Positions 46,332 through 63,579 of a stretch of 64,000 nt of DNA are shown piece by piece. The position numbers were made by a program, and so were the translations under genes. The stretch lies in the NCBI RefSeq assembly GCF_013403915.1, contig NZ_JABFDI010000006.1:62001-126000 (forward strand), in the 5' to 3' direction. Within the stretch, counting starts at the first letter, position 1. Each line of letters begins with the position of its first letter. Under the pieces are notes generated by a model that saw only the letters and a list, made by a program, of their open reading frames with translations, made no database searches and was not told where the DNA came from. This stretch comes from Winogradskyella pacifica (GTDB taxonomy: Bacteria > Bacteroidota > Bacteroidia > Flavobacteriales > Flavobacteriaceae).

Positions 46332-46358
46332 ATGTAATTTTGATTTGTTTGATTGCTA

Positions 46359-46366: not shown

Positions 46367-46389
46367 ATTATTTATGTAGTATAGTTCAT

Positions 46390-46833: not shown

Positions 46834-47930
46834 TTTCTTATTAATTTTACAATACCTAAATTTTCTATGCCGACGTAAATAAACCCATCAGGACCTTGCT
46901 CTACGGATCTTACGCGTCCTAACCCGTCAAGTAAACGTTCTTCTTTTATGACTTTATTATCTTTTAAAGTGCACATGTCTAAATATTGAAATTTTAGGGA
47001 ACCTACTAAAAGATTGCCATCCCAATCACCATAGTTGTCACTATTAATGAAAGCCATTCCACTGGGTGCAATGGACGGATCCCAATAGTGAATGGGCTGT
47101 TGCATACCTTCTTTTTCTGTGATATCGGTGAATTTTGTGCCAATATAATTTACTCCGAAGCTTATTATAGGCCAACCATAGTTTTTTCCTGGTTTAATGA
47201 TGTTTATTTCGTCACCACCCTTAGGGCCGTGTTCATGCGTCCATAGTTGTCTTGAATCTGGGTGAATTGTCATGCCTTGAGGATTTCTATGGCCATAAGA
47301 GTAAATAGCCGTTTTGGCACCCGATTCATTAACGAAAGGATTATCTTCAGGAATAGAGCCATCAGCATTAAGGCGGTAAATTTTTCCGCCGTCTCTGGTA
47401 ATATCTTGAGGGTTCTCATCTCTATTTCCTCGGTCTCCAACCGAAAAATATAAATATCCATCATCATCAAAAGCGAAACGAGATCCAAAATGTTGACCTT
47501 TAGTTGTGTTGGGTGAGGCCTTATATAATACTTGTAGATTTGTTAAACTATGATCTTTAAGTTGGGCTCTTGCGATAGTTGTATTTCCGCCAGAATCTTC
47601 ACCTTCAGATGAAGCATAAGAAAGGTAAACCCAATTGTTTTCTTTGTAATCAGGATGTAAAATAATATCTAGTAAACCGCCTTGGCCACGAACATAAATT
47701 TCTGGCAGACCAGAAATACTTGTTTTTGTTCCATTCTTAAAATGAATAAGCTCACCTGATTTTTCGGTAATTAACATGGAATTATCAGGAAGAAACGTAA
47801 AACCCCAAGGAATATTTAGATCTGAGACAATTATTTCGTGTGTATTTTCTGAATTTTTAGGATTTTTATCTTGCGCGCATGCTAGTGTGCTAGAGAGGAT
47901 TAGTCCGATAATGATACTTTTTATATCCAT
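46830..47930 (-). CDS. PQQ-dependent sugar dehydrogenase (soluble GDH-like beta-propeller)
   Basis: A 366-residue protein with a Cys-containing lipoprotein-like signal (SSTLACAQ) and a six-bladed propeller of the soluble glucose/sorbosone dehydrogenase family. Motifs: IPWGFTFLPDNSMLITEKSG, GGLLDIILHPDY, QHFGSRFAFDDDGYLYFSVGDRG, SYGHRNPQGM and TWHEHGPKGGDEIN-like region (HEHGPKGGDEIN), which carries the PQQ-proximal His. It likely oxidises a sugar or aldose and passes electrons to the cytochrome encoded next to it. The exact substrate and use of PQQ are inferred from family. Confidence 0.88.
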   Translation of the reverse strand: MDIKSIIIGLILSSTLACAQDKNPKNSENTHEIIVSDLNIPWGFTFLPDNSMLITEKSGELIHFKNGTKTSISGLPEIYVRGQGGLLDIILHPDYKENNWVYLSYASSEGEDSGGNTTIARAQLKDHSLTNLQVLYKASPNTTKGQHFGSRFAFDDDGYLYFSVGDRGNRDENPQDITRDGGKIYRLNADGSIPEDNPFVNESGAKTAIYSYGHRNPQGMTIHPDSRQLWTHEHGPKGGDEINIIKPGKNYGWPIISFGVNYIGTKFTDITEKEGMQQPIHYWDPSIAPSGMAFINSDNYGDWDGNLLVGSLKFQYLDMCTLKDNKVIKEERLLDGLGRVRSVEQGPDGFIYVGIENLGIVKLIRK

Positions 47931-48000
47931 AATTTTTTTGTCTAAAAAAGATTAAGAGTTTAAAGTTAGACAATTGTTGTTGGATTATAAAGAAAAATTA

Positions 48001-48008
48001 TATATTTG
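48001..48008 (+). promoter_or_regulatory. Promoter -7 box for tRNA-Pro
   Basis: TATATTTG fits TAnnTTTG; TTG triplets at 47977-47979 and 47980-47982 are at a suitable distance (about 18-21 bases) for the -33 element. Confidence 0.65.
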
Positions 48009-48033
48009 CAGTCCGAAATTGGGAATACAACTT

Positions 48034-48108
48034 CGGGGTGTAGCGTAGCCCGGTTATCGCGCCACGTTTGGGACGTGGAGGCCGCAGGTTCGAATCCTGC
48101 CACCCCGA
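48034..48108 (+). tRNA. tRNA-Pro (anticodon TGG)
   Basis: The acceptor arms CGGGGTG (48034-48040) and CACCCCG (48101-48107) pair fully, with discriminator A at 48108. The anticodon stem CCACG/CGTGG encloses the loop TTTGGGA, giving anticodon TGG. The T-loop is GGTTCGAATCC. The 3' CCA is not encoded, as is usual in Bacteroidota. It lies between the sugar dehydrogenase gene and the cobalamin operon. Confidence 0.97.
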
Positions 48109-48114
48109 CTAAAA

Positions 48115-48150
48115 AAAACTCTATAAGTCTTTTGATTTATAGAGTTTTTT
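48115..48150 (+). terminator. Terminator after tRNA-Pro
   Basis: AAAACTCTATAA (48115-48126) pairs with TTATAGAGTTTT (48137-48148) around a 10-base loop and ends in T. Confidence 0.8.
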
Positions 48151-48191
48151 AGTTTTTAAACTATTGTAATATAAGATGTTCGGTGTCTTCT

Positions 48192-48233
48192 AAAAAAAAA
48201 CTGCTTTTCAAAGTGATATGAAAAGCAGTTTTT
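48192..48233 (-). terminator. Terminator of the cobalamin operon
   Basis: AAAAACTGCTTTTCA (48196-48210) and TGAAAAGCAGTTTTT (48219-48233) form a perfect 15-base stem; on the minus strand a T-run follows. It lies about 12 bases after the last gene's stop and could also act on the opposite strand. Confidence 0.88.
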
Positions 48234-48245
48234 TAAAATTAGTTA

Positions 48246-49220
48246 TTACTCTTTTATAAGTCGATGTTGACTTATTTTTCCATGAGATGCAATTCTAACT
48301 AGATACACTCCACTTTTAAGCGAAGCGATCTCAATAGTATTATTTGCATTAACTTTTTCTGAAATCACCAATTTACCAAGCATATTATAAATACTTACAT
48401 TGACTTCTTCAACTGTTTTAATGTAGAATTTATTAGAGGCTGGGTTTGGGTAAATAGCAATGGTGTCAAGATTTTCATCATCGACTCCTAATACCTGTTG
48501 ATTGATAACTCCAATGCCATCCAAATCAAACCCACCAGAATAAAATGGTGTGGTAAAAGGATCATTAATAGCATTACCAAAACTATCATATCTGGCATAA
48601 GCTGGGTCAATACTTCCGACGACATCAATAATTTTGATGTGCGTAATATTATTTTTGTCTAATAAAACATCCTCCTCTAAGTCTGATAAATCAAAAGGTG
48701 TTCCGAATAACCCTTTGTATTTTCCTGCGAGATTGTTGATATATGTCGGATCAATAGTTCCAAATCCATCAATTTGCGTTTCTGTTTGCGTTTCACTATG
48801 AGATGGAAACCTGAAATAATTAACACCATCAGAACTCACTTCAACAAAAGCTAATTCTAGAAAAGTAGCACTAAAACTATTTTCAAAAACAGCAAAGTCA
48901 AAACCATCGCCATCGGTAATTGGTGTCTCAAAGGTTAGGGTGGCTTCACCAGCATCTCCTAAGCTTACCACGCTATTGGTTGCGGAGCCTAAGGCATCTT
49001 CAGCTGTTCCATAAGTTGCATAATTACTATCCTCATGCTCAAATGTAGGGTTAGAAATATCAACATGTCCACGTTGTAATTCTATGTCAGTAGCCCAAGC
49101 TACAAAAACAGGACTATCAGCAGAAATAGCAGTAGAACCTGGTTCACCTGCAGCAGGCGCATAACTTTGAGCTTGTAAAACAAAGCTAGAACACAGAAAG
49201 AGAAGAACCGTTTTTATCAT
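48246..49220 (-). CDS. T9SS cargo protein in the cobalamin operon, unknown function
   Basis: A 324-residue protein with a signal peptide (about 1-18, LQAQ), a novel-looking domain (about 20-235) and a type A T9SS sorting domain (about 248-324: YPNPASNKFYIK ... LKSGVYLVRI ... HRLIKE). The middle has HVDISNPTFEHEDSNYATYG, SVVSLGDAGEATLTFE and DGFDFAVFENSF, a conserved-looking arrangement that I cannot assign to a named domain. It overlaps the upstream T9SS BtuG-like gene by four bases and is last in the riboswitch-controlled operon, so a role in surface B12 capture is plausible. It differs in sequence from BtuH as I know it. Confidence 0.8.
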   Translation of the reverse strand: MIKTVLLFLCSSFVLQAQSYAPAAGEPGSTAISADSPVFVAWATDIELQRGHVDISNPTFEHEDSNYATYGTAEDALGSATNSVVSLGDAGEATLTFETPITDGDGFDFAVFENSFSATFLELAFVEVSSDGVNYFRFPSHSETQTETQIDGFGTIDPTYINNLAGKYKGLFGTPFDLSDLEEDVLLDKNNITHIKIIDVVGSIDPAYARYDSFGNAINDPFTTPFYSGGFDLDGIGVINQQVLGVDDENLDTIAIYPNPASNKFYIKTVEEVNVSIYNMLGKLVISEKVNANNTIEIASLKSGVYLVRIASHGKISQHRLIKE

Positions 49221-50503
49221 TTCACCATTAGTTTTAGAGTTGTAGAATTTCCTTTCACTTCAACATTAACTAAATACATTCCGGTTTCTATACCTTCTAA
49301 AGAGATTGGTTGCGTGTTTGTGTAATTTACGTCTTTTACTAATTTTCCTGATACATCATATAATTTTACAGTAGCATTTTCTGTAAGGTTTAATTGAAAA
49401 CTTCCAGATGCAGGATTCGGGAATATAGTTGTGTTTTCAAAAGCATAGTTATTAACGCTTAGAGTTCCTTCGTTTTTGTAAACTCCATTAGGAAGTGGTC
49501 CTACGATGTGTTGTGTTAGTAAAAGTCCGCTTTCGTCATATACAAATACTTTTCCTGGGCTTACATAATCTATAGCATCTAATAAATAGAGCTTGTCGTC
49601 AACCTTGTCAAAACCATAAGTGAGTTGTGCGTCAGTCGTTGTATTAAAGGCTACTGTTGGAAGCGTTGTATCTGTTGAAGCCATTTTATAAATGTTATTA
49701 TTTAAAACATAATATAAATCAGTAGCATCTAATGCTAAAAAACTTGGGTGCTCTGACGTTTGAAAATCAATGGTCACATGGTTTTGATAATCTGATAAAT
49801 CTATTTTGTGAATACTACCTAAAGTTTCATCACCTGTCCAAGCTTGTTTTCCACTAGCAAGTACATATAAATAATCATCGTCAACTTTTAATGATGATGG
49901 CACGTCGCCTACAGTGATTGATTCTACAGTACTTGTTGCTATATCAATTACAGAAACAGAATTACCATAACCATAACCACCTTGATGCGCCACAAATAAT
50001 TTTCCATTTTTCTGAACAATTTTTTCAGGACCTTCAGCTACAAGAATTGTTTCAGTAATGGTATTAGTTGCTAAATCGATTACAGCAACGTAATCATCAG
50101 TTGTATCTGATGGATCTCCCCAATTAGTCACATAACCATAACCATCATAAAATGCGATATTACGTGGGGCGCTTAATTGATCTGTAATGCTAGCCGAAAA
50201 AGCAAAAGTCGTACTGTTCATTACTTTTATTTCGTCACTATAATGAAGTATGACATAAGCAAAATCGCCATAGAAGCCCATTCCTTGTCCTGTATCACCT
50301 AAAGTCATACTAGGATTTTGAGTCGTGAAAATATCATTTTCTAATGTTCCATTGGCATCAATATGTGAAACTGAAGCCGTATTTGTACCAAATAAACCTT
50401 CGTTTAAAATAAAGAGACCATCAGAGTAGTCTTGAGCGTAGCTTGTTGCAGATAATAAAACTGCAGATAGAATGTAAAGTGTTTTTTTGTAATAGTTTTT
50501 CAT
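49217..50503 (-). CDS. BtuG-like beta-propeller with T9SS sorting domain
   Basis: A 428-residue protein with a classical signal peptide (about 1-23, TSYAQ), a propeller domain (about 25-345) and a type A sorting domain (about 350-428: IFPNPASGSFQLN ... GIETGMYLVNVEV ... KLMVK). The propeller shares with the next gene upstream the blocks GYVTNWGDP/GYITNWGDP, VAEGPEKI, HQGGYGYGN/HKGGYGYGN, VSVID and SGKQAWTGDETL/SGKASWTGDETL. This DUF5074/YncE-like fold is that of BtuG, the surface B12 binder of Bacteroides. Unlike BtuG it has no lipidation Cys, and would be delivered by T9SS. Confidence 0.85.
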   Translation of the reverse strand: MKNYYKKTLYILSAVLLSATSYAQDYSDGLFILNEGLFGTNTASVSHIDANGTLENDIFTTQNPSMTLGDTGQGMGFYGDFAYVILHYSDEIKVMNSTTFAFSASITDQLSAPRNIAFYDGYGYVTNWGDPSDTTDDYVAVIDLATNTITETILVAEGPEKIVQKNGKLFVAHQGGYGYGNSVSVIDIATSTVESITVGDVPSSLKVDDDYLYVLASGKQAWTGDETLGSIHKIDLSDYQNHVTIDFQTSEHPSFLALDATDLYYVLNNNIYKMASTDTTLPTVAFNTTTDAQLTYGFDKVDDKLYLLDAIDYVSPGKVFVYDESGLLLTQHIVGPLPNGVYKNEGTLSVNNYAFENTTIFPNPASGSFQLNLTENATVKLYDVSGKLVKDVNYTNTQPISLEGIETGMYLVNVEVKGNSTTLKLMVK

Positions 50504-50527
50504 AGTTTAATTGTTTTTAATTTATTA

Positions 50528-51616
50528 TTATAAGTTGTTAAAATAGAATGCATTCGGAATGATTTGGACTGAGAATTGGTTTTGTAAATCGCCATTAAGA
50601 TTATAAATAAATGCTTCTCCATTAGAAACGTAATCTTTAGCATCAGCGATATAGATAGCACCTTCGTGCACCTCAAAACCATAAAGAATCTCAACACCAT
50701 CTGCTGCTGTTGAAAAAGAAGGGGTTTCTGGAAGCTGAAAACCATTGCTGTCTAAACTGTATACAGCATTGTCCATGGTGTAATACAATGTTCCATTTTC
50801 AAATTCAAGATGACTAGGATGTTGACCTGCAGAAAAAGTGAGCGCCGTTACATCATTAATGTCAGATAGATTAATCTTAAAAAGTTTTGCTAGGGTTTCA
50901 TCTCCTGTCCAAGAGGCTTTACCAGAACAAATGACGTAGAGATATCCGTTGTCTATTACCATGCCATCTGGTACATCTGCCACCGAAATAGTATTTGCTA
51001 GACTTTGTGATGCCACATCAATGACACTTACAGTATTACCATAGCCATAGCCACCTTTGTGCGTTATGTAAAGTTTATCATTGTTCAATAGTATTTTTTC
51101 TGGACCTTCAGCTACAGGAATGGTAGCTTCAATAAGATTTGTATCTAAATTTAAAACCGCGACAAAGTCATCGTTGACGTCATTTGGATCTCCCCAGTTG
51201 GTGATATAGCCTTTGTTGTTGCTAAATTCAATGTATCTAGGATTGACAATCATATCACTTACTGTTGCGATATATTCAAACGTATAGCGATTAACAACTT
51301 CTATTGTAGATGAGTTGTTGACTACTAAATACGCATTGTCACCATTAAAACCCATACTTTGTGCGGTGTCTCCAAGATTTACACCGTTAACTTCAGTATA
51401 AATGGAATTATAAACGTCACCTGTCTCTCCGAAAAAAGAAATTGAAGCATTAGAATAACCAAATCCGCCTTCATTCAAAATAAATATACCGTCTGTATAA
51501 TTTCCAGAGGGTGGTTGCACAGCAATAGGATCGTCTCTGTCATCACTAGTACAGGATGTTATACTTAGTGTCGCTATGATTAAGAGGCTTGCTAATTTGT
51601 GAAAATGGTTTTTCAT
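50528..51616 (-). CDS. BtuG-like cobalamin-binding surface lipoprotein (DUF5074)
   Basis: A 362-residue lipoprotein: signal TLSITSCTSDD with Cys at about residue 22 followed by acidic residues, the usual surface-export signal in Bacteroidota. The propeller repeats include YTDGIFILNEGGFGY, ITNWGDPNDVNDD, IPVAEGPEKILLNN and VADVPDGMVIDNGYLYV. It follows btuB by three bases. In Bacteroides BtuG caps BtuB and hands over B12 with very tight binding; the gene order and riboswitch here support the same function. Its binding residues cannot be read off directly. Confidence 0.87.
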   Translation of the reverse strand: MKNHFHKLASLLIIATLSITSCTSDDRDDPIAVQPPSGNYTDGIFILNEGGFGYSNASISFFGETGDVYNSIYTEVNGVNLGDTAQSMGFNGDNAYLVVNNSSTIEVVNRYTFEYIATVSDMIVNPRYIEFSNNKGYITNWGDPNDVNDDFVAVLNLDTNLIEATIPVAEGPEKILLNNDKLYITHKGGYGYGNTVSVIDVASQSLANTISVADVPDGMVIDNGYLYVICSGKASWTGDETLAKLFKINLSDINDVTALTFSAGQHPSHLEFENGTLYYTMDNAVYSLDSNGFQLPETPSFSTAADGVEILYGFEVHEGAIYIADAKDYVSNGEAFIYNLNGDLQNQFSVQIIPNAFYFNNL

Positions 51617-51619
51617 ATT

Positions 51620-53455
51620 TTAAAATTTTAAATGTAAATAGAAGTTGAAATTCCGCCCAGGCATTGGTCGGTTGAGAACGCTTTCGTAAGATTCGTTCCA
51701 AAAATTGAGTATTTGTGCACCTAGCTTATAGTTGCGTTTTTTACTAAGGGTATATTCGGCCCCTAAATTAGCCACCATATAGCTGTCTAAAATATGTTCG
51801 GTAGCATGGTCGGTAGTTGTAAAGACTTCATCATTATTGAGGTATTGGTAATAAGCTGAAATTCTTTTGTAATTGTAACCCACTGAAGACGTGAACTTGT
51901 AAAACGGCACATAAATTAACTGCTTTCCTGTTTCTTTATTCTCTGAAACCGTGTAAGCAAAGGTTGCAGAACCTGTTAATTTATGATTTCCAAATGATTT
52001 TTGAAGTGTAACGACCGATTCAAGCCCGTAAATTTCAACCTTATTCGTGTTTTCTGGTCTGAAAATACCTGAATTATCAGGAATCCAACGCAACAAGTTT
52101 TCGACATAATTATAATAACCAGTTAACGAAATGGATAGGTTTTTAAAGTTGAAATTATTGCTGATTTCACCTTGATAAGAGGTTTCGGGTTTTAAATCCG
52201 TATTTCCAACGCCTTGCCAATACAAATCATTATAAGTCGGGATTCTAAAATTCTTGGATGTATTAACTTTTAATTGATAAACGTCGGTGAGTTGAGCACT
52301 AAAACCTGCAGAATATAAAAGTGGATTCCCATACTGTTCATTGGTTTCTTGACGCAATCCTAATTCGTATAGAAATTTTTCTGAAAGCACATGTTTAAAA
52401 CTCACTAAAGCAGCAGATAAGTTACGGGTTTCTGAAGCAATATTAGAGCCACGACCATCATTGTGTGTGTAATTAAGTCCAGCGGTAAGTAACATTTTAT
52501 TAGACAGAACGTAGTCTAGCCCGTATTTAGCTATAAAACTAGTGACCTTTCCATAGGTGTAAAAGTCATTATTAATATTTCCAAAATAGCGGTATTCTTC
52601 AGTGGTGCTGGCTACTTTAAGATTGGATTTAAATGCACTAAAATGACTTTCCCATTCTATTAATGAGCGCGTGTTGAAATCTGTATATTTTGTTTTTAAA
52701 GCATTTGGTGTAGGTACCGAAAAATTCCGTCTACCGTCATATATATTAGCAAAAACTTTAAGTGTGTTATTTGAATTCAATTTTGAAGTCGCTGCAAAAC
52801 TGACATTAGTATTGTGGTATTGGCCATTAATATTGATGCGGTCGGTTTCGGGATACGGATAATTATTATCTGAAGCATTTCTTGCAATACCTAAAAGCAT
52901 GCTGAATTTCTTTGAAGAATAATTGGTTTGGTAATCTATTCCGTAGGTGTTAAACTCACCATAATTAGCAAAGAGTTCATTATGAAATCCTTTGTTAAAG
53001 CCCAATTCATTTACTAAATTAATAGAGCCTCCAATAGCGCCACTGCCATCAGCAACACTAGAACCTCCTGGTTTTATTTCTATTTTGTTATAACCACGTG
53101 TATTAATGGTGTTAAAATCAGTTTGCCCAGTGGTTTGTGAGTTAATATTAATACCATTCCAAAGAACTGAGGTTTGCGATGCTGTAGTCCCTCGAAACGA
53201 CGGAGAAGAAACCATGCCTAGACCATTTTCCTTAAAATAAACGGTACTATTAAAGTTTAGAAAATTGGTTAATGAAGCTTGGTTTTGTTTTAGAACACTG
53301 TCTTTAACTACAATAACGTTTCTAGTGTATGTAGAATCTTTAAGTCGATAAGAAATAAGACGTACCTCTCTCAAAGCCGTTATAGAGTCGGTTTGCGAAT
53401 GAAGCATAGAACAAAAACCTATGCAAAACAAAATGGTATATACAAAATATCTCAT
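51620..53455 (-). CDS. btuB: TonB-dependent cobalamin receptor BtuB
   Basis: A 611-residue outer-membrane barrel with a signal peptide (about 1-20) and a plug (about 45-155; FRGTTASQTSVLWNGININS, GGSSVADGSGAIGGSINLVN). The barrel strands end LHLKF with the terminal Phe. Specificity is indicated by the cobalamin riboswitch directly upstream and the BtuG-like genes downstream, as barrel sequences alone would not distinguish it. It is of BtuB length and lacks the CarboxypepD_reg extension. It begins the B12 uptake operon. Confidence 0.92.
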   Translation of the reverse strand: MRYFVYTILFCIGFCSMLHSQTDSITALREVRLISYRLKDSTYTRNVIVVKDSVLKQNQASLTNFLNFNSTVYFKENGLGMVSSPSFRGTTASQTSVLWNGININSQTTGQTDFNTINTRGYNKIEIKPGGSSVADGSGAIGGSINLVNELGFNKGFHNELFANYGEFNTYGIDYQTNYSSKKFSMLLGIARNASDNNYPYPETDRININGQYHNTNVSFAATSKLNSNNTLKVFANIYDGRRNFSVPTPNALKTKYTDFNTRSLIEWESHFSAFKSNLKVASTTEEYRYFGNINNDFYTYGKVTSFIAKYGLDYVLSNKMLLTAGLNYTHNDGRGSNIASETRNLSAALVSFKHVLSEKFLYELGLRQETNEQYGNPLLYSAGFSAQLTDVYQLKVNTSKNFRIPTYNDLYWQGVGNTDLKPETSYQGEISNNFNFKNLSISLTGYYNYVENLLRWIPDNSGIFRPENTNKVEIYGLESVVTLQKSFGNHKLTGSATFAYTVSENKETGKQLIYVPFYKFTSSVGYNYKRISAYYQYLNNDEVFTTTDHATEHILDSYMVANLGAEYTLSKKRNYKLGAQILNFWNESYESVLNRPMPGRNFNFYLHLKF

Positions 53456-53506
53456 AAACCCGATGCCTTTTACCCGAAAGCCGTTGTGTTAATTGTTGGT
53501 AAAATT

Positions 53507-53670
53507 GGCAGGTCTCCTGACTCGTGTCCTACTAATGGTCCTTCCCATTCTAAAAGAACAGTGGATGTTGAAGATTTTCATTAGAGGCATCCCAAAAAGG
53601 GACTAAACTTACAGTTGCGGGAACAGTTCAGGATTATTAAGTTAATAACTATTTTACCTGATTCCCTTTT
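53507..53670 (-). promoter_or_regulatory. Cobalamin (B12) riboswitch
   Basis: Read on the minus strand from 53670, the leader has GGGAATCAGGT, CCTGAACTGTTCCCGCAACTG, a loop region, ACTGTTC, GGGAAGG and the final CGAGTCAGGAGACCTGCC. These are the conserved blocks of the cobalamin riboswitch, in the right order and spacing, ending about 50 bases before the btuB ATG. It should reduce expression of the four-gene operon when B12 is plentiful. Confidence 0.95.
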
Positions 53671-53709
53671 AATCATATCTATAATACATAGACATAAACC
53701 AATAGAGGA

Positions 53710-53717
53710 CAAAGGTA
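53710..53717 (-). promoter_or_regulatory. Candidate -7 box of the B12 operon
   Basis: Minus-strand TACCTTTG matches TAnnTTTG and lies about 40 bases upstream of the riboswitch, as expected for its promoter. Confidence 0.55.
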
Positions 53718-53865
53718 GATAATTGTATTCTATTTTAGATAAAAACACCTTCTTATTTAGTGTAAATATTGAAATTGTTTGATGATAGATTAAATGCCTT
53801 TTTGGAGGCATTTTTTGATCTCGATTATAATCGGTAAATCGTCGTGAGTAGAAGAATTTTTACAT

Positions 53866-53901
53866 AAAAAAAACAGTGCCAGTATGTGGTTTCTGGCACT
53901 G
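53866..53901 (-). terminator. Terminator of the metal-lipoprotein operon
   Basis: CAGTGCCAG (53874-53882) pairs with CTGGCACTG (53893-53901), and eight T follow on the minus strand (A-run 53866-53873). It is downstream of the DUF4625-type lipoprotein gene at 53968. Confidence 0.88.
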
Positions 53902-53967
53902 CTAAAAAACATCAAAAATCTAACCCAATTTTAATGTAATTGTTTATGTCTTTTAATAGGTAAATAT

Positions 53968-54447
53968 CTAATCAATGATTTTTATATCAACAGAAGTTCT
54001 GCTTTGCCAACCTGTTTCATCGGTTACTGAATATGAGCAATGGTAGTCCCCTGTGTCTATATCATCTGGGATAGTGATACTAATATTAATCTCATAAGTT
54101 GATAATCCACCTTCGATTTCAAAATTTTCCATGTATATGAATGGATTTACGGCTCCTTTTATCGGGTCTAAATCACAAGTCTCTCCTTGATCATCATGAG
54201 TATGGTGATCAAAATTATGGTGAAGGTCTAAGCTATATGAAGCCAGTGCTTTGTTGTCTGCAACCTGTGCTTTAAAGCTATAAGTTTCCCCTTTTAGGAG
54301 TTGTTCGCAAGCTTGCGGAAAACCTTCAGCGTAATTAATACTAATAGTAGGCTTTTCTTCATCAATAGTATTACTGTCGTCGCTAGAACATGAAGTAAAA
54401 AGTACTATCACTAAGATTAAATTAAAATATTTGGTAATCCATTTCAT
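53968..54447 (-). CDS. His-rich DUF4625-type lipoprotein, single domain
   Basis: The 159-residue lipoprotein has its lipidation Cys at about residue 20 (VLFTSCSSDD). The domain contains SLDLHHNFDHHTHDDQGETCDL (its central HHTHDD is a dense metal-ligand cluster) and ISITIPDDIDTGDYHCSYSVTDETGW, where GDYHxxxxVTDE matches the repeats of the neighbouring protein. The family DUF4625 is of unknown function; the His/Asp/Cys clusters suggest divalent-metal binding, which is my inference. It is the last gene of the TonB receptor operon and is separated from the two-domain version by a hairpin. Confidence 0.8.
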   Translation of the reverse strand: MKWITKYFNLILVIVLFTSCSSDDSNTIDEEKPTISINYAEGFPQACEQLLKGETYSFKAQVADNKALASYSLDLHHNFDHHTHDDQGETCDLDPIKGAVNPFIYMENFEIEGGLSTYEINISITIPDDIDTGDYHCSYSVTDETGWQSRTSVDIKIID

Positions 54448-54463
54448 GGTAAAAAGTTTAAAA

Positions 54464-54490
54464 CCGCATAGTATTTGCGATACTATGCGG
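54464..54490 (-). terminator. Hairpin between the two lipoprotein genes
   Basis: CCGCATAGTAT (54464-54474) pairs perfectly with ATACTATGCGG (54480-54490). On the minus strand it is followed by TTTTAAACTTTTT rather than a pure T-run, so it may be a partial terminator or an attenuator that lowers expression of the following gene. Confidence 0.6.
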
Positions 54491-54502
54491 AATAATTAAT
54501 GT

Positions 54503-55285
54503 TTAAGATGCTGTAACATCGATATGTGTTTCGTAGGCTTTAGTGTTTCCATCTTCATCTTCAACAGTAAAAGTTATATGATACTCTCCTGCAGGTGCAG
54601 TTGCTGGGACATCAATATGCTCGTGGAATTCTACGTCTGTTAAGCCATGATAACCTTCTGAGAATATGATTTCAGAATCCCATTCTACTTCACCAGCACC
54701 AACAGGAAGACCGTGCGCATGGATATCTACTGTAATATTGTGAATGCCATTACGTGCATTAATCATAAATTCAGCATGAAAATCGCTCCCTTTAGCTGCA
54801 GCAGCATCCACAGAGAAACCACTTAATATTATGGAATCTAAAACCTCTAAATGCCCTTCGATTGCTGTACTATTTCCAAGCTCATCAGTAACAGTTAATT
54901 CAATGTGGTATTCTCCAGAAGGAATATTAGTTGGTACATCTACATGTTCATGAAATGTAGGATTGATGACTTGATAATTACTCCCTGAGTATTCTTGGAA
55001 AAAGTCCCACTCAACTTCACCATCAGCTAGAGGTAAATCGTGAGCATGGATCGAAAGCGTAATACTACTGACCACAGCTTCTGCATTTATTTCGGCTTCT
55101 AAATGAATGTCTGATCCTTTAAAAGCAACCTGATCTGTAGAGTGTACGCTGCCTTCCCCATATTCAAAATTAGTTATTTCTGGAGCATTAAGACTAGGTG
55201 AACTAGTGTCATCATCACTGCTACATGAGTTTAAAAGGATTCCGAAAAACGCGATAAGCGCTAAAAATTTAAAATTTGATTTCAT
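54503..55285 (-). CDS. Two-domain His-rich DUF4625-type lipoprotein
   Basis: From the ATG at 55285 (MKSNFKFLALIAFFGILLNSC) the product is 260 residues; ATGs at 55306 and 55321 are also in frame, but this one starts the lipoprotein signal. Two repeats (about 30-145 and 146-260) each carry KGSDxHxE, SIHAHDLP/DIHAHGLP with GEVEWD, FHEHVDVP/FHEHIDVP and GEYHIxxTVxDE. The HAH and HEH pairs occur in both repeats, a strong sign of metal ligands. The gene lies directly after the TonB receptor. The protein would be a surface or periplasmic metal-binding partner of the receptor. Confidence 0.8.
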   Translation of the reverse strand: MKSNFKFLALIAFFGILLNSCSSDDDTSSPSLNAPEITNFEYGEGSVHSTDQVAFKGSDIHLEAEINAEAVVSSITLSIHAHDLPLADGEVEWDFFQEYSGSNYQVINPTFHEHVDVPTNIPSGEYHIELTVTDELGNSTAIEGHLEVLDSIILSGFSVDAAAAKGSDFHAEFMINARNGIHNITVDIHAHGLPVGAGEVEWDSEIIFSEGYHGLTDVEFHEHIDVPATAPAGEYHITFTVEDEDGNTKAYETHIDVTAS

Positions 55286-55344
55286 AAGTTTTGTTTTTGT
55301 GTTCATAATGTTTGTGTTCATGGTTTATAAATTATTTATGGTTA

Positions 55345-57714
55345 TTAAAAGGATTGTGTGAGTGCTATAGAGATGTTTCTTCCGGCTTCTGGCACATCGA
55401 TTAAGCGGTAAAAACTCGTATGGTCGTAATATTTAGTATTGAAGACGTTATTGAGTTTAAACTTTATTTCTAATGGTTTCTGAGTTTTAAAGACATCTAT
55501 TTGTGTGAGTAATGCCATGTTTAAGACTTGGTAGCCCTCAGTTTGTTCTTCTGGTGGTACAATGTCATCTTGTGCCGTTGTAATTCTGTAATCGGCAATA
55601 AGTTGAGGTTGTTTAAAAAAGAGTGCATCTTTAAACTGATAGTTTGCAGAAAACAATCCGGATAATGGTGGAGAAAATGGAATAGTAAAACCTTCTTTTG
55701 GGCCACTGGTTTGTTTAGAGTAGACGTATTCAGCAGAAGCATCTAATTTTAAATTAGGAATAACACTTGTACTCGCTCTTAATTCTCCACCTGCTCTAAA
55801 TACCTTGTTTTGTGTGTATTCGTAAATTTGTAACGTCTCATAATAATTTGAAGTCGGATTCAGGTAAATAAAATTTTCGAAGAAATTGACGAATGGACTA
55901 ACTCCGATGCTAAAATCCTTTGTGGTGTGGTCGATATCAATATCTAATTGATAGGATTCTTCAGGATCTAAATTGAGGTTGCCTTGCTCATAACGGTACA
56001 TGTGATAATTCACTCCATCTGAAGCTAATTCATTAGGTAAAGGCATTCTAAAACTTTTTCCTGCATTTATTTTAAAGGTGGTATTGTTTAGAATATAACT
56101 TAAGCCTACAGAAGCGCTCACATTTCCAAAATTGAGCGTTTTATTTTCGGCTCTTTGTAAATAGACATATGAGGTAGAACCATTAGCATTATTGATGGTA
56201 GAAGGGTACCAATCAAAATAAGACTTACTATGTATTTGTCCAAAATCATAACGAATACCAGCTAAAAGATGTAAGTCTGAATTGATTTCAAACTGATCAA
56301 AAGCAAAAGCACCAATAGTGAAACGGGTATATTCAGGTATTAAAAATCCCCAGCCGCCAATGTTATTATCTTGAAATTCTACATTGATACCGGTAACAAT
56401 ATGATGATCATCAATTAGTGTAAAGGCATCTTTGACATTCAGGGACAACGTATTTTTTTGAAAACTACGTTCCTTACTGTTAGAAGGAGTTGGCATATAA
56501 CCATGCGGTATTGGTTCGGAATGCTCCTCTCTTAAATTATTTTGAAAACCGAAATCGAGATTAATACTGTGCTTATCTAAAGCTATTGATGTATTATTAG
56601 TAATTTTAAAATGGTTCACTTTATGATAAGGCAGATCAATATCTCTATTAGACTGGTCGTAATCAATGCGCGATGTTCTCACTTCTAAACCATGGGCATT
56701 AGCGAAAAAGCCATTTTTAGCATTGACGTTGCTAATTGTGGTTTCTGTCGTTATACGGTCTGAAATATACCCTACACTTATACTAGCGTTAGCTTCTTTT
56801 CCTGCGGTGTTACGTAGATTATTGTCGTGTAGCGTAAAGATGTAATTTTCGTAATTTATTTGGTCTGTAGGAACTTTATAATCGCCATAATCTCTATAAG
56901 TGAGGCGTCCACGATAAAACCATTTTTCTTTTCTGGCTTGGATTCCTGCAGAAATACCTAATAAATCATTGTTGCTTTCTCCTAAGACATTCACTTCTCC
57001 ATTAAAAGAGTTTGCAAGCGGTATTTTATTTGGTTGAATATCTACAACACCAGCAATAGCATCAGAACCATAAACCAAAGAAGCCGGTCCTTTTACAATC
57101 TGAATAGTTTCAATGCCATATTGGTCTATTTCTAAACCATGATCATTTCCCCATTGTTGTGCTTCGTGTTTTATACCATTTTGAACCACAGCAACTCTAT
57201 TAAATCCTAAACCTCTAATGACAGGTTTAGATTGTCCGGAGCCAATTTTAATAGTACTTACCCCCGGAATTTTACTTAGGGTTTGCATCAAGCTATTTTC
57301 CCTGTTGGTAGTAAGAAATTCTTTAGAGACCAATTGAGAAACTACAGGCGATTCTTTATGTTCTCTCTTTTTAGTTTTTCCGTTGACCTTTATTTCGTTG
57401 AGTTCGGTGGTAGATTCCTCTAATAAAATTTTAAGGTTTTCGCTATTTGAGCTTGCTTTTATAGTAATTGTTTTAGAAGCGTAACCTAAATGCGAAATCG
57501 TAAAGGAGTAGATGCCTTCAGTAACATTAGGAATGGTGAATGTTCCTGAAGCAGATGAAATCTCATGAAGATTTTCGCCATTAATAGTGGCACCTTCGAT
57601 GGGTTGTAAAGTGTTTTGGCTTATTACGGATCCTTTTATTTGAAAAGAATTCTGTGCAATAGCGATTGTGCTTAGGCTAAAAAATAGCCATAAACTCAGG
57701 GTTTTGTATAACAT
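55345..57714 (-). CDS. TonB-dependent receptor, probable zinc or other metal importer
   Basis: The 789-residue outer-membrane protein has a signal peptide (about 1-21), a CarboxypepD_reg-like domain (about 24-110), a plug (about 120-230; IPGVSTIKIGSGQSKPVIRG, VYGSDAIAGVVDI) and a barrel ending ISIALTQSF. The plug contains KHEAQQWGNDHGLEIDQYG and the barrel FFANAHGLEVRTS and PYHKVNHF: several His at positions compatible with a metal path, resembling ZnuD-type receptors. The neighbours (His-rich lipoproteins, MerC-like, Fur/Zur-family regulator) support a metal substrate. Zinc is a guess over copper, manganese or nickel. Confidence 0.82.
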   Translation of the reverse strand: MLYKTLSLWLFFSLSTIAIAQNSFQIKGSVISQNTLQPIEGATINGENLHEISSASGTFTIPNVTEGIYSFTISHLGYASKTITIKASSNSENLKILLEESTTELNEIKVNGKTKKREHKESPVVSQLVSKEFLTTNRENSLMQTLSKIPGVSTIKIGSGQSKPVIRGLGFNRVAVVQNGIKHEAQQWGNDHGLEIDQYGIETIQIVKGPASLVYGSDAIAGVVDIQPNKIPLANSFNGEVNVLGESNNDLLGISAGIQARKEKWFYRGRLTYRDYGDYKVPTDQINYENYIFTLHDNNLRNTAGKEANASISVGYISDRITTETTISNVNAKNGFFANAHGLEVRTSRIDYDQSNRDIDLPYHKVNHFKITNNTSIALDKHSINLDFGFQNNLREEHSEPIPHGYMPTPSNSKERSFQKNTLSLNVKDAFTLIDDHHIVTGINVEFQDNNIGGWGFLIPEYTRFTIGAFAFDQFEINSDLHLLAGIRYDFGQIHSKSYFDWYPSTINNANGSTSYVYLQRAENKTLNFGNVSASVGLSYILNNTTFKINAGKSFRMPLPNELASDGVNYHMYRYEQGNLNLDPEESYQLDIDIDHTTKDFSIGVSPFVNFFENFIYLNPTSNYYETLQIYEYTQNKVFRAGGELRASTSVIPNLKLDASAEYVYSKQTSGPKEGFTIPFSPPLSGLFSANYQFKDALFFKQPQLIADYRITTAQDDIVPPEEQTEGYQVLNMALLTQIDVFKTQKPLEIKFKLNNVFNTKYYDHTSFYRLIDVPEAGRNISIALTQSF

Positions 57715-57820
57715 AATGTGATACTATAAGATTTGTAGGATTCGTCAAACGGACGACCCATTATAAAATCTATTTGGTTTGAATGAAATCGGATTTTCTA
57801 TAACGAATCAAATGATTTAA

Positions 57821-57970
57821 ATAGCTAAAGTTTTAGAGCTTCACTATGGAAGAAGACGTCTAAACGCATTAAATCATGGGGTCTCTGAGTATCTCGATAT
57901 TGAAGCACATAATTCTAAAAATGGAACTAATGCTTCAAAAGCTAAAAGGTATATAGAGAGAGACTTATAG
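57821..57970 (+). pseudogene. Possible remnant coding fragment, + strand
   Basis: Between the metal-receptor gene and the 97-residue protein gene, this frame runs 49 codons to TAG at 57968-57970 (LELHYGRRRLNALNHG...KRYIERDL) and is open but has no ATG; TAA at 57818-57820 precedes it. The residue mix is protein-like and unlike random AT-rich translation, so it could be the end of a lost gene. I recognise no family, and chance is possible. Confidence 0.25.
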
Positions 57971-58258
57971 TGAAAAGGGAGGAGGTCTAGACAGTAGTTG
58001 ACTAGAAGTAATCGTCTTATGAGTTACAAAACTGTAAGCGTTAAAGTTGTCTCTAACGATGACTAATTCTGTGTTTTTAATGTAAAACTCTTGTGCCTCT
58101 GGAGTTAGGATAGGTATTACATTATTAATTGTAGCATAATCACAAACCTCACAATGTAAATCTTGGTCCTTATCCTCATCGTGAGTCAAGGCGTGAAGCC
58201 CAACCATTTTTAAGGAAAGAAAAAGAATAATAAAGAAGTATGTGATGCTGTTCTTCAT
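57965..58258 (-). CDS. Small exported protein with His/Cys-rich segment
   Basis: A 97-residue product with a signal/membrane segment (about 6-22) and then HALTHDEDKDQDLHCEVCDYA, a His/Asp/Cys cluster that could bind a metal. The end is LLSRPPPFSL. Similar small proteins with HALxH and CxxC precede TonB receptors in metal loci of Bacteroidota as I recall, but there is no named family. It lies 48 bases after the MerC-like gene and about 250 bases before the TonB receptor. Confidence 0.7.
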   Translation of the reverse strand: MKNSITYFFIILFLSLKMVGLHALTHDEDKDQDLHCEVCDYATINNVIPILTPEAQEFYIKNTELVIVRDNFNAYSFVTHKTITSSQLLSRPPPFSL

Positions 58259-58306
58259 TTAATAATTAAAATATTTACGTTTTTAAATTTGTTTACTAAG
58301 TTTTAA

Positions 58307-58696
58307 TTAGTGGTTTTGCTTAGCCGCTATGCGTAATAATTTCCAATTAGCATAATGTGCTAAAGCTAGTAAAGTTGCACCTATAACCGTATTACTAACT
58401 TCCCATAAATTTGTGAGGTGAAGTCTGCCTATAGCTATAAAAGCAAACCCTAATAAAGCAATCTTTAAAGGTTTGGTTTTATGGTGAATTGTTTTATAAC
58501 TTGGCCAAAGCGAGGTTAATAAAAACACAATTCCTAAACTTATGAATACCCACTCAATCATTGGATTATTTAAAAAATATAAGCTACTCAATGAAGAAAA
58601 CGAAAGTAAAATAGGGAATATAGCACAATGAATGGCGCAAATTAAAGAGCTTGAAAGTGCTATTATATCTAGGGTATTATTTTTTATTTTATTCAC
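58307..58696 (-). CDS. MerC-like membrane protein
   Basis: The 129-residue protein has four hydrophobic segments and the motif SLICAIHCAIFPI, with two Cys in the first membrane helix, as in MerC, the mercury-transport protein whose relatives are common in Bacteroidota metal loci without mercury reductase. A role in transport or tolerance of a transition metal is likely; mercury itself is unlikely in the absence of merA. It is divergent from the Fur-family gene and shares its TTGCAA-rich control region. Confidence 0.8.
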   Translation of the reverse strand: MNKIKNNTLDIIALSSSLICAIHCAIFPILLSFSSLSSLYFLNNPMIEWVFISLGIVFLLTSLWPSYKTIHHKTKPLKIALLGFAFIAIGRLHLTNLWEVSNTVIGATLLALAHYANWKLLRIAAKQNH

Positions 58697-58746
58697 TTTA
58701 CTAAACGTTAAAGAATTTAAAAGCGACTACGTCGCATTACTGGGTT

Positions 58747-58803
58747 TTGCAAATATATTATTTATTTATAATATTGCAATGTTGTTGCAATAAATTATTG
58801 CAA
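58747..58803. promoter_or_regulatory. Cluster of TTGCAA palindromes between merC-like and fur-family genes
   Basis: Four TTGCAA hexamers start at 58747, 58774, 58785 and 58798, within 57 bases in the divergent region. Pairs of such half-sites resemble Fur/Zur-family operators, where TGCAA arms recur. This is a likely binding site of the adjacent regulator on its own and the merC promoter. Confidence 0.5.
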
Positions 58804-58819
58804 ATAAATCGCATTAAGA

Positions 58820-59194
58820 ATGAAAAGAAGAAATACACCGACTAAAGAAGCCGTTTTAAGTGTAATCACTAAAGCCGGACAAGCTATGAGTCAGGATGCG
58901 ATTGAAGGCGAAATTTCTATTGATATTAATAGAGCAACAATCTATCGTGTGTTAAATCGTTTTTGTGAGGATGGTGTGTTGCACAAAGTTATTGCAGAAG
59001 ATGGTAAACAATATTTTGCCTTATGCGATGGTTGTGATGAAACACATCAAATGCATCAACATTTTCATTTTAAATGTACGGTTTGTGAAACATTAGAATG
59101 TCTTCCTAATGAAGTTAATTTTTCGATTCCAAACGGTTACCATGTAGAGAACGTAAATTGTGTTTTAACAGGAGTGTGTAAAAAGTGTTCTTAA
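58820..59194 (+). CDS. Fur-family transcriptional regulator (Zur-like)
   Basis: A 124-residue regulator: an N-terminal winged helix (about 5-65; SQDAIEGEISIDINRATIYRVLNRFCEDGVLHKV) and a metal domain with HQMHQHFHFKCTVCETLEC and the terminal CKKCS, giving two CxxC pairs for a structural zinc and a His cluster for the sensing site. It is close to Zur and PerR/Fur in length. The location next to a metal receptor locus and the TTGCAA cluster upstream suggest autoregulation and control of that locus. The sensed metal, probably zinc, is inferred. Confidence 0.87.
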   Translation: MKRRNTPTKEAVLSVITKAGQAMSQDAIEGEISIDINRATIYRVLNRFCEDGVLHKVIAEDGKQYFALCDGCDETHQMHQHFHFKCTVCETLECLPNEVNFSIPNGYHVENVNCVLTGVCKKCS

Positions 59195-60216
59195 TCGTTG
59201 AGACCTAAAAATTCAACATCACTTAGGGTTTTCATAAAAGCAATTAAGTCTGTTTTTTCCTGTGGTGAAAGTGGTATTCTGTTGTTATTATCTTTTAAAA
59301 TAGGATCTAAATTATTAGCTTCTAAAACACCAGTATCTAAATAATTGAGCACATCTTCTAATGTTGCAAATTGTCCGAAGCTGCCGTAAGGAGCAGTATA
59401 TTCTATATTTCTTAAACTAGGCACCCTAAAACGCATATAATCTTCAACAAGACCTGTAATTCTGGCACGTCCGCCTTCTTCGGGATCCGAATTTATAGGA
59501 AATCCGATATTTCTAAAGCTTTGATCCGTGAATAATTCTGTACTATGACAGCTGATACAGTTATCTTGAAAAACAGCGTAACCTTGCGCTTCACTTGTAG
59601 TAAATGTTTCACCCTCATTGCGTTTTACTTTATCGTATTTACTATTTGCTGAAATTAAGGTATATTCATATTGTGCAATACTATTATAAATACCATCAGC
59701 GGTAATACCTTCACCATCAAATGCTTTATTAAAAAGCTCAACATAAGATACATCTGTTTCAAGTTTACCTATCACTTCTAAAATTGAAGAATCCATTTCT
59801 TCATGTGTAATAATAGGCACTAATGGCTGATCTTCTAATTGAAGTTTATTGCCGTCCCAATTATAAAACTGCATAAACGCCATGTTTTGAACAGGTGGTG
59901 CATTACGAAGTCCTATGCGGCCTTCGATTCCTATTCCTTTGGGATTATGATCTGCAAAAGCGCTTTCTTGAATATGACAACTAGAGCACGAAATCGTGTT
60001 ATCTGCACTCAATTGTTTGTCAAAAAATAGTTTTTTCCCTAATTCAACACCAAATTCTGTAGGTGTATTAGTGTATACTGAATTGTTGAGTTCAGGAAAA
60101 TTACTAGGAGTATTCAATGGGATTTCCGGATTGTTATAAGTAACACGTTCAGAATCATCGTTATTACAACTCGTAATTAGCAATACTATAGCGATATGTC
60201 GTATGAGTTTTTTCAT
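59191..60216 (-). CDS. Di-haem cytochrome c peroxidase-like protein (MbnH/MauG family)
   Basis: From the ATG at 60216 the protein is 341 residues, with a lipoprotein signal (VLLITSCNND, Cys at about residue 17). An upstream frame of 17 codons is rejected because it breaks the signal. Two haem motifs ISCSSCH (about 75-81) and NCISCHS (about 220-226) are visible, with DNTISC and RFRVPSLRNIEYTAPYG as typical peroxidase context. MbnH-type enzymes oxidise a Trp of the paired MbnP into kynurenine to create a copper site, and an mbnP-like gene is adjacent. The convergent fur gene overlaps the stop by four bases. Confidence 0.87.
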   Translation of the reverse strand: MKKLIRHIAIVLLITSCNNDDSERVTYNNPEIPLNTPSNFPELNNSVYTNTPTEFGVELGKKLFFDKQLSADNTISCSSCHIQESAFADHNPKGIGIEGRIGLRNAPPVQNMAFMQFYNWDGNKLQLEDQPLVPIITHEEMDSSILEVIGKLETDVSYVELFNKAFDGEGITADGIYNSIAQYEYTLISANSKYDKVKRNEGETFTTSEAQGYAVFQDNCISCHSTELFTDQSFRNIGFPINSDPEEGGRARITGLVEDYMRFRVPSLRNIEYTAPYGSFGQFATLEDVLNYLDTGVLEANNLDPILKDNNNRIPLSPQEKTDLIAFMKTLSDVEFLGLND

Positions 60217-60289
60217 GAAAATATAGTATGAAACTAGTAAAAAGAGTCGGCTAGAGGTAGGCCTCATAACCGACTCATTAATTTTAGAT

Positions 60290-61156
60290 TTAGTTTTCTA
60301 CTGACGTAATAGAAAACATTCCTGTAACATCTGTTGTGCCGTTACCTCCAATATTCTCTACAAACTTCATCATTTCAGTGGCTGTATGAGCACTTGGTGT
60401 TGCGTTGTTCGAAATATCTTCAGTTGAAACCAACGTTACTGTGTGACTATTTCCACTTAATAAATAATCAAAATCAGCTTTGATAGCAATTGTTGGTGCA
60501 CTATTACCAACAGTTGCAGTAGCAGGTAGACTTAATGTAATATCTCTATAAGCATCGACTCCTTGTGTATAATTTTCTTCGTCACCTTCTAAAGTACTTC
60601 CAGAATGGAAAGACAACTCTTTGTTATCTGTGTCATAGAAGCCTTCAATTTTAGTAAAACGGTATCCTGTTCCCCATTCCCAATGCATTTCAGTATCATT
60701 TGATCCTGCGTTATCATAAAACGTTGGAAAGCTAACTTGATCTAAAGTATTTAAGTCTGATCTTACACCTAAACCAAATTTAATTTCTGTATAATCTCCA
60801 ACAGGAATATCACTTAAAACGTAGCTTAAAGTCTCTGGTTTTGCTTGGTTAACCACCGTTGCGCCTGTATCTAAATTGTTGACGTTATAAGGAATTTCAG
60901 TACCATCAGCTTTTATAAGACGAATGTTACTGACTACGTATTTTAATTCAGAAAAATGGTGAACTTGTCCTGCATCAGAAGTATTAACGGTAGCTTCTGC
61001 AGAAGTTGCTGCACCAAGAACAATAGGCGTACTGTTAAATGTATTGCTGAATTCTAAAGTCACATTGTTTGCTACACGGTTGTCGTCATCAGAACTACAA
61101 GACATAAACGCAACAAGTACTGCTGCTGATAAAATATATTTTTTAAGATTTTTCAT
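60290..61156 (-). CDS. MbnP-family copper-binding lipoprotein
   Basis: A 288-residue lipoprotein with signal VLVAFMSCSSDDD (Cys at about residue 20). It matches MbnP: VTLEFSNTFNSTPIVLG near the start, FSELKYVVSNIRLIKADG, LSDIPVGDYTEIKFGLGV, TEMHWEWGTGYRFTKIEGFY and the later ITLSLPATA. The WEWG Trp pair is a candidate for the MbnH-modified residue and His or Met around it for copper ligands; this is inferred from the family. It lies upstream of mbnH-like in the same operon. Confidence 0.86.
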   Translation of the reverse strand: MKNLKKYILSAAVLVAFMSCSSDDDNRVANNVTLEFSNTFNSTPIVLGAATSAEATVNTSDAGQVHHFSELKYVVSNIRLIKADGTEIPYNVNNLDTGATVVNQAKPETLSYVLSDIPVGDYTEIKFGLGVRSDLNTLDQVSFPTFYDNAGSNDTEMHWEWGTGYRFTKIEGFYDTDNKELSFHSGSTLEGDEENYTQGVDAYRDITLSLPATATVGNSAPTIAIKADFDYLLSGNSHTVTLVSTEDISNNATPSAHTATEMMKFVENIGGNGTTDVTGMFSITSVEN

Positions 61157-61197
61157 TTTTTAAATTTGTAATAATTGGTAATTTGTTTTAAATAATA

Positions 61198-61584
61198 TTA
61201 AGTGCGATTAAAACCCTGTGTATATATTGGCGGTGGCACCAGTATTTCTAAATAGGGTTCGGTATGCTGAAATTCTTTGTAAATCACCAATTCCCTCTTT
61301 TTTGAGATTTTTGGAATTTTTAATTCAATTTCGAAATTTGAACTGAATGCTAAATCAAAATTTCTTGTATTAATAATTTTTTCTGAAGGGGTATCTTCGG
61401 TTTCTTGTAATTCTTTTGTTAAATGACATGTACCATTACATTGTAGTTCTGGTTTGCTTTTATTGATACAAAATTGTTCTATAATGGCTTTTTGGTTGAG
61501 TTTAAAGTGCATAATAACGACGGCTTGCTGCGAAACAACAAACAGAAATATAAGGGTCATTATGAAACTAAAAACGCTGCGCAT
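61198..61584 (-). CDS. Small membrane-anchored protein with CNGTCHL motif
   Basis: A 128-residue protein with one N-terminal membrane segment (about 5-24) and the motif FCINKSKPELQCNGTCHLTKEL (conserved Cys spaced as C-x11-C-x3-C, then H). Such small proteins sit next to copper-type TonB receptors in many Bacteroidota as I recall, unnamed. The Cys/His set could bind copper or be a redox site. It starts five bases after the receptor stop and lies upstream of mbnP-like in the same operon. Confidence 0.72.
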   Translation of the reverse strand: MRSVFSFIMTLIFLFVVSQQAVVIMHFKLNQKAIIEQFCINKSKPELQCNGTCHLTKELQETEDTPSEKIINTRNFDLAFSSNFEIELKIPKISKKRELVIYKEFQHTEPYLEILVPPPIYTQGFNRT

Positions 61585-61588
61585 CTCT

Positions 61589-63574: not shown

Positions 63575-63579
63575 CAGTA

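Follow-up and report, generated by a model that had tools for sequence, protein, structure and literature searches.

Two lipoproteins of Winogradskyella pacifica, here called D1 and D2, probably bind zinc and feed a ZnuD-like TonB-dependent receptor under Zur-type control. They are encoded in a 64,000-nucleotide stretch of genomic DNA, which was analyzed as a whole and is referred to as the window. According to reading frames and Pfam matches, the gene order on the minus strand is MerC-family protein, S97, TonB receptor, D2 and D1, and a Fur-family gene (FurL) is divergent from these five genes, which would form a single operon. An alternative start of D2 is provided by an in-frame ATG at 55285. 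The consensus behind the promoter-like site upstream of the MerC gene is one that we assume. All features are listed in Table 1.

Table 1. Features of the DUF4625 locus (positions refer to the window)
Feature	Position	Strand	Remarks
D1: DUF4625 lipoprotein, one domain, 159 aa	53968..54447	-	lipobox Cys20; H76/H136 of site-2 type; loop HHTHDD; conserved Cys47/Cys91
HHTHDD motif of D1, residues 81-86	54190..54207	-	
D2: DUF4625 lipoprotein, two domains, 272 aa	54503..55321	-	lipobox Cys33, then SSDDD
D2 domain 1, residues 46-161	54839..55186	-	proposed site 1 H73/H124/H126; proposed site 2 H92/H94/H139/H157
D2 domain 2, residues 162-270	54512..54838	-	the two proposed sites repeated: H182/H233/H235; H201/H203/H248/H266
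TonB-dependent receptor, 789 aa	55345..57714	-	nearest curated model ZnuD (below cut-off); nearest solved structure ZnuD 4rdr
S97, small protein, 97 aa	57965..58258	-	invariant H22, H26, C36, C39 (82 sequences)
MerC-family protein	58307..58696	-	PF03203, E 2.2e-22
Operator-like palindrome TGCGACGTAGTCGC	58723..58736	-	downstream of promoter-like site
Promoter-like TTG-N19-TATATTTG	58750..58779	-	5 pattern matches in 64 kb, both strands counted
Operator-like palindrome pair, overlapping	58773..58803	-	TTGCAATAATTTATTGCAA 58785-58803 and TGCAACAACATTGCAAT 58773-58789
Fur-family regulator (FurL), divergent, 124 aa	58820..59194	+	conserved Cys pairs C86/C89, C120/C123

D1 comprises one DUF4625 (PF15418) domain (Pfam E-value 2.6e-44, 151 bits) and D2 comprises two (1.7e-51, 174 bits), in both cases against a gathering cut-off of 27. 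A search of the whole genome found no DUF4625 domain beyond these three. The translations contain HNFDHHTHDDQ in D1 and HAHDLP, HEHVDVP, HAHGLP and HEHIDVP in D2, so that an earlier note on this DNA, which had described three such domains in two lipoproteins with repeated His motifs, was right about every motif it quoted. It had also listed HHTHDD of D1 among the matching motifs. This motif is present, but its alignment partner is HAH and it belongs to the loop that follows strand C; because this is a different place in the fold we rejected it as the counterpart of HEH.

The residues H76, H82, H84, H136, C47 and C91 of D1 are 100% conserved in 32 single-domain sequences, as are H182, H194, H201, H225, H233, H235, H248 and H266 of the second domain of D2 in 22 two-domain sequences. 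Because of this conservation the His motifs are not due to chance. Similarity to the window proteins decided which sequences entered the two sets (above 140 bits for D1, at least 180 bits for D2); 26 further DUF4625 sequences from the same loci were left out of them and are included in the 77-domain analysis below. In a larger alignment of 72 sequences all six D1 residues are still invariant. Among 71 D2 sequences, some of them just 27% identical, H73, H124 and H126 are invariant, H92, H139, H182, H201, H225, H233, H235 and H248 are kept in at least 90%, and H194 and H266 fall below this level. Conservation in both proteins is centred on His, Asp, Glu and Cys. The closest named D1 (best 80 of 535 candidates) is that of W. 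psychrotolerans with 95% identity.

AlphaFold2 predicted a confident sandwich for D2 (mean pLDDT 86.5, both domains mostly above 90) as well as for D1 (mean pLDDT 88.2, with lower values in the loop that follows strand C), with about eight strands in about 115 residues per DUF4625 domain. A fold comparison employing Foldseek and VIA-align returned, among the matches listed, common Fn3, Ig and PKD sandwiches including tandem Fn3-like domains. The best hits listed were fibronectin 9p6s for D2 (Z 10.9, rmsd 3.4, 179 aligned) and 9kvu for D1 (Z 9.8, rmsd 2.0, 91 aligned). A dedicated zinc-binding protein was not noticed among the fold matches listed for the two proteins, which excludes nothing. 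The PDB sequence search gave no credible relative (best E-value 0.03 for D2 and 0.06 for a D1 profile).

In Ig/Fn3 sandwiches strand B pairs with strand E, and strand C pairs with F and G. We placed the His positions by strand register in the predicted sandwich rather than by distances. In domain 1 of D2, H73 at the start of strand B and H124 and H126 of strand E are expected to meet on one sheet (site 1). On the other sheet, H92 at the end of strand C, H139 near the start of strand F and H157 of strand G are expected to do the same (site 2). Both sites would be located at one pole of the sandwich and would point outward, judging from the alternation with hydrophobic residues.

Covariation was analyzed in 77 domains with less than 70% identity, out of 325 distinct domains. 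Histidines at B73, E124 and E126 co-occur (phi 0.83-0.91), and those at C92 and F139 are always found together (phi 1.00). The two groups are slightly opposed to each other (phi -0.21 to -0.45), and G157 is weakly correlated with both (phi 0.24-0.44). All seven histidines are present in 16 of the 77 domains and none in 3; 20 carry only C92, C94 and F139 (the D1 type) and 17 only B73, E124 and E126 (D3, described below, and a D2-like paralogue). Read from the sequences, the histidines form two modules, one on the B and E strands and one on the C and F strands, that are kept or lost separately. Together with the strand register, this covariation supports a clustered arrangement in the DUF4625 domains. 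On a tree built without the His columns, each of these columns changes 4-8 times, compared with a mean of 19-25 after shuffling. C92 and F139 each change four times alone and four times jointly. For B73 (5) with E124 (4) we counted 6 joint changes, for E124 (4) with E126 (5) 7, and for the cross-module pair B73 (5) with C92 (4) 8. From these counts site 2 is a firm unit and site 1 a looser one, both resting on few evolutionary changes.

Two further kinds of DUF4625 protein were observed at related loci. A 530-residue protein (L036:10898-12490) adjoins D1 and has a long C-terminal part with no family above cut-off. The D3 type (L067:8265-9242, L069:8331-9296, L037:6554-7567) consists of a single domain with site 1 only, followed by about 170 residues that are without a Pfam match in the D3 of L067, the one that was scanned. 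The D3 genes of L067 and L069 sit in zinc-type gene sets without the receptor.

The receptor is encoded directly upstream of D2; the earlier note had placed a TonB receptor beside the lipoproteins. It contains the plug (PF07715, 1.6e-18) and the β-barrel (PF00593, 8.5e-26) of TonB-dependent receptors. Its best NCBIfam model is the zinc-piracy receptor ZnuD (NF038289), and its only PDB match at 1e-10 is ZnuD 4rdr. ZnuD is thus the nearest curated and solved relative, but at 162 bits the receptor stays far below the curated cut-off of 950, and for this reason we call it ZnuD-like and do not file it as ZnuD. Models of haem and copper receptors match it as well, with scores under their respective cut-offs. 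To our knowledge, no lipoprotein partner of ZnuD has been described.

The receptor and DUF4625 are found together. Within the family, 36 of 249 genomes have DUF4625, with the match exceeding the Pfam cut-off in 35, and 31 have the receptor (E ≤ 1e-150); DUF4625 is present in all 31. Only 5 of the 218 genomes without the receptor have it (Fisher p 1e-34, for species that are not independent). In one of the five (G038) the DUF4625 match is below the cut-off, in two (G089, G100) a more distant receptor of 446-458 bits lies by the DUF4625 gene, and in the other two (G053, G144) no receptor was found at that place. In a sample of 395 genomes of the phylum, the receptor (E ≤ 1e-90) occurs in 16, all within the 22 genomes with DUF4625; the remaining six have weak DUF4625 matches of at most 43.1 bits. 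Four of these 16 genomes also belong to the family sample. One of the 16 lies outside the class of the window (L183) and has the receptor, D2 and D1 beside FurL, MerC and FolE.

A search with D1 as the query gave 80 named loci. They were the top-ranking 80 of 535 candidates and are therefore biased towards close relatives, and the species are related and not independent; these loci are referred to below as the best 80. In 78 of the best 80 the receptor gene is on the same strand at a distance of at most 400 bp. Of the two exceptions, L140 stops at a contig edge and L142 is without the receptor. The latter locus (Polaribacter sp. BM10) contains S97, a D2 fragment and D1 with no receptor between, as if it had been deleted. 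D2-type genes are present in 77 of the best 80. In an earlier set of 40 loci this receptor type was found in 31; the nine others are L034, L035 and L066-L072, some of which end at a contig edge. Co-occurrence with metal-type receptors had been set beforehand as a test, and the counts of 31/31 and 16/16 genomes and 78 of the best 80 loci come out in its favour. These counts also bear out the receptor partnership of the "surface metallophores" of the earlier note. The term itself is less fitting: since D1 and D2 are anchored lipoproteins, we prefer "metal-capture lipoprotein".

Around the pair, in the best 80, we found MerC in 31 loci, a set of ABC ATPase, MacB-like permease and c7 in 17, FolE in 13 and a COG0523 GTPase in 11. 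At least one of these accompanies the pair in 37 of the best 80, or in 50 if Fur-type genes are counted; the DNA examined at the other 30 contains neither a zinc-type neighbour nor FurL. Pfam assigned representatives to cobW (both forms), GTP_cyclohydroI, ABC_tran, MacB_PCD, MerC, FUR and alkaline phosphatase. FolE at these loci is PF01227, the zinc-dependent type IA enzyme, and not the FolE2 named in Zur regulons; one of the 13 (L133) is a shorter form. Zur regulons typically hold TonB receptors, COG0523 proteins, folE2 and zrgABC (PMC6103462), and the Zur-controlled cluster PA4063-PA4066 of Pseudomonas encodes a split MacB transporter (PMC11481552). A PDB sequence search did not yield a link of c7 to PA4066. 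No COG0523 or FolE gene is present among the reading frames of the window from 46000 to 64000. S97 is encoded in 79 of the best 80 loci. It has a conserved SRPPP end and matches no curated family above cut-off in Pfam or NCBIfam; with its invariant residues (Table 1) it is a candidate small metal carrier. Taken together, the gene company points to zinc.

The same architecture could serve another metal (copper, nickel, cobalt, manganese or iron/haem), with a regulator that senses this metal. We consider this unlikely, though of all alternatives it deserves the most attention. On the other side of the window (59191-63574, minus strand) lies a copper-type set encoding an MbnH-type dihaem protein, the copper-binding protein MbnP, a 128-residue Cys/His protein and a TonB-copper-like receptor, and the haem and copper matches of our receptor could be read in the same way. 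Parts of this set accompany 13-14 of the best 80 DUF4625 loci, all from Winogradskyella, Flagellimonas or Muricauda/Allomuricauda. Because they are found at so few loci, we rejected the copper-type genes as part of the DUF4625 system: in the window they lie beyond the divergent regulator, and they are absent from the DNA examined at 66 of the best 80. The COG0523, FolE and MacB-type neighbours as well as the ZnuD match favour zinc.

A Fur-type gene is present in 44 of the best 80 loci, so that the check for a Fur-type regulator beside the DUF4625/receptor pair, named beforehand in the earlier note, was positive. FurL reaches only 19.6 bits against the NCBIfam Zur model and, judged by eye, is of a different subtype in the window from the FurL found beside MerC-FolE; it would act as a Zur-like regulator. 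The upstream regions have a palindrome in common, TTAATGCAAC-TAA-GTTGCATTAA. Learnt by EM with a width of 19 on 109 upstream regions (30 starts, 60 rounds), the motif reached a log-likelihood of 376, compared with 50-60 for three shuffled sets (first-order Markov samples, 12 starts, 40 rounds). This operator precedes both the S97-receptor and the MerC-FolE genes in L134, L158 and L167, and both S97 and MerC in L166. In one genome (G196, locus L222) it precedes a COG0523 gene on a contig other than that of the DUF4625 locus. No operator above threshold is present at 29 of the best 80.

We searched 12 whole genomes with up to two mismatches and found 31 operator sites, compared with 10 for the reversed pattern. 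Of the 31, 15 have a FurL, MerC, S97, COG0523 or thioredoxin-reductase-like gene no more than 350 bp away, 11 of these sites being outside the learning regions and 4 within; of the other 16 sites, 12 are inside long reading frames. The operator density was 1.46 vs 0.0033 per kb, a ratio that is circular in part because the learning regions overlap the counted regions. In the window the palindromes flank the promoter-like site (Table 1). The genome of the window contains eight exact operator matches, three of them at the DUF4625 locus, and three matches of the reversed pattern. The five matches elsewhere have no zinc genes beside them and are no more than chance suggests. The combination that marks a Zur regulon, a Fur-family regulator and a shared palindrome before zinc-limitation genes, was thus found in relatives, whereas in the genome of the window the operator is clear at the DUF4625 locus only. 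As a side observation, the operator precedes genes of thioredoxin-reductase-like flavoproteins in L224, L226 and L233, with a Fur-type gene beside it in two of these; the flavoproteins would be a further member of the regulon.

An acidic, export-like stretch (e.g. CSSDDD) follows the lipobox cysteine in 67 of 71 D2 and 56 of 72 D1 sequences, counts that stand without a control set of other lipoproteins. Signals worked out for Flavobacterium johnsoniae (SDDFE) and Bacteroides fragilis (SDDDD) directed a reporter to the surface of Capnocytophaga (PMC5080379). The stretch therefore supports a surface location of D1 and D2 but does not decide it. Alternatively, both proteins could face the periplasm on the inner leaflet of the outer membrane and buffer zinc arriving from the receptor, similar to ZrgA/PA4063. 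These are zinc-binding proteins of Zur-controlled clusters with MacB-type ABC genes (PMC11481552), and ABC/MacB/c7 genes do flank 17 of the best 80 DUF4625 loci. ZrgA/PA4063 is periplasmic and has a ferredoxin-like fold (PMC8561739). The constant partner of the DUF4625 proteins, however, is the outer-membrane receptor (78 of the best 80) rather than the ABC genes. With the acidic stretch also speaking against it, we regard a role as periplasmic buffers as quite unlikely.

We propose the following mechanism for zinc capture by D1 and D2. Zinc scarcity would release the Zur-like regulator from the operators that surround the promoter and allow transcription of the genes for MerC, S97, the receptor, D2 and D1. 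Each domain of D2 would offer two His sites, one on each sheet of the Ig/Fn3-like sandwich, and D2 as a whole up to four. D1 would contribute a single site, to which H76, H136 and the HHTHDD loop belong and which a disulphide probably holds in place. Flipped to the surface of the outer membrane, both lipoproteins would capture Zn(II) and deliver it to the receptor, where TonB energy would drive its import. S97 and MerC may carry the ion onward through the periplasm and the inner membrane.

As lipoproteins that serve a TonB receptor, D1 and D2 had been likened to BtuG and SusD in the earlier note. BtuG has a β-propeller fold. The DUF4625 domain is not a propeller, because its strands and residues are too few for several four-stranded blades, and kinship of D1 and D2 with BtuG or SusD was rejected since no sign of it was seen. 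What would be alike is the role alone. In Bacteroides, BtuB-BtuG for vitamin B12 (PMC10404256) and XusA-XusB for ferric enterobactin (PMC12574912) also combine a TonB receptor with a dedicated substrate-capturing lipoprotein. As in these pairs, the DUF4625 lipoprotein is encoded with the receptor, and it is present in every receptor genome of the two samples. It differs from them in being a small Ig/Fn3-like sandwich with His sites, and in its proposed substrate, a bare metal ion.

In pathogens, receptors of the ZnuD type exploit zinc proteins of the host by piracy, and D1 and D2 could likewise bind a zinc-loaded small molecule or a foreign zinc protein, with the His sites taking the metal. 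XusB and BtuG, too, capture ligands for their TonB receptors (PMC12574912, PMC10404256). Conservation in D1 and D2, however, is centred on His, Asp, Glu and Cys, and such piracy appears improbable. A plain adhesion or structural role of Ig-like domains in D1 and D2, with histidines that serve the structure, would suit the generic sandwiches among the fold matches listed, but is very improbable in view of the modular His conservation and the linkage to receptor and regulator.

Closest in chemistry to the proposed capture of zinc by D1 and D2 is ZepA of Anabaena, a Zur-regulated exoprotein with an Ig-like sandwich and a nearly invariant His triad, whose authors discuss the need for an outer-membrane receptor (PMC10957091). 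ZepA belongs to the PEP-CTERM proteins, has a unique second domain and shows the motif H-X2-9-H-F/Y-H. Its reported homologues are found in the Cyanobacteria, the Proteobacteria, the Nitrospirota and the PVC superphylum, and Bacteroidota are not among them (PMC10957091). Unlike ZepA, the DUF4625 proteins are anchored lipoproteins with two proposed sites per domain. Judged by eye, they show HAH, HEH and HTH motifs and a lipobox and have no PEP-CTERM tail, and are thereby set apart from ZepA as described. ZepA is thus nearest in chemistry and BtuG and XusB are alike in role, and DUF4625 is filed under none of them.

More generally, DUF4625 proteins could be lipoproteins that capture zinc at the cell surface through two independent His sites in each domain, with an obligate ZnuD-like receptor partner, and form the core of an undescribed Zur regulon of Bacteroidota for uptake of the bare ion without a small metallophore; we see the chances of this wider claim as evenly balanced. 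In the literature collection searched, neither "DUF4625" nor "PF15418" gave a match, in line with the earlier statement that a metal-capture function had not been assigned to the family, and searches on zinc, Zur, TonB and lipoproteins in Bacteroidota gave no description of this system among the matches listed (titles and abstract openings). Our proposal would provide DUF4625 with a function, with predicted metal sites at residue level, with its receptor and with its operator. If true, the principle of a receptor aided by a lipoprotein, known from vitamins and siderophores, would also apply to a metal ion. The passage of zinc across the outer membrane of Bacteroidota, which are abundant in the sea and the gut, seems to be little described, since the stem "bacteroid" is absent from the main text of a review of Zur regulons (PMC6103462).

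Two other loci of this genome deserve mention. The genome contains three Fur-family genes. The second (L237:8330-8746) is located between genes of a CusB/HlyD-type membrane-fusion protein and a P-type ATPase, which suggests that this regulator controls metal efflux. In the window, the minus-strand region 48246-53717 contains a cobalamin riboswitch (53490-53717) ahead of a TonB receptor gene (51620-53455), two genes of DUF5074 proteins, of which one is a lipoprotein and the other has a T9SS tail, and a gene of another T9SS-tail protein. This region is likely a B12-uptake locus beside the zinc-type locus.
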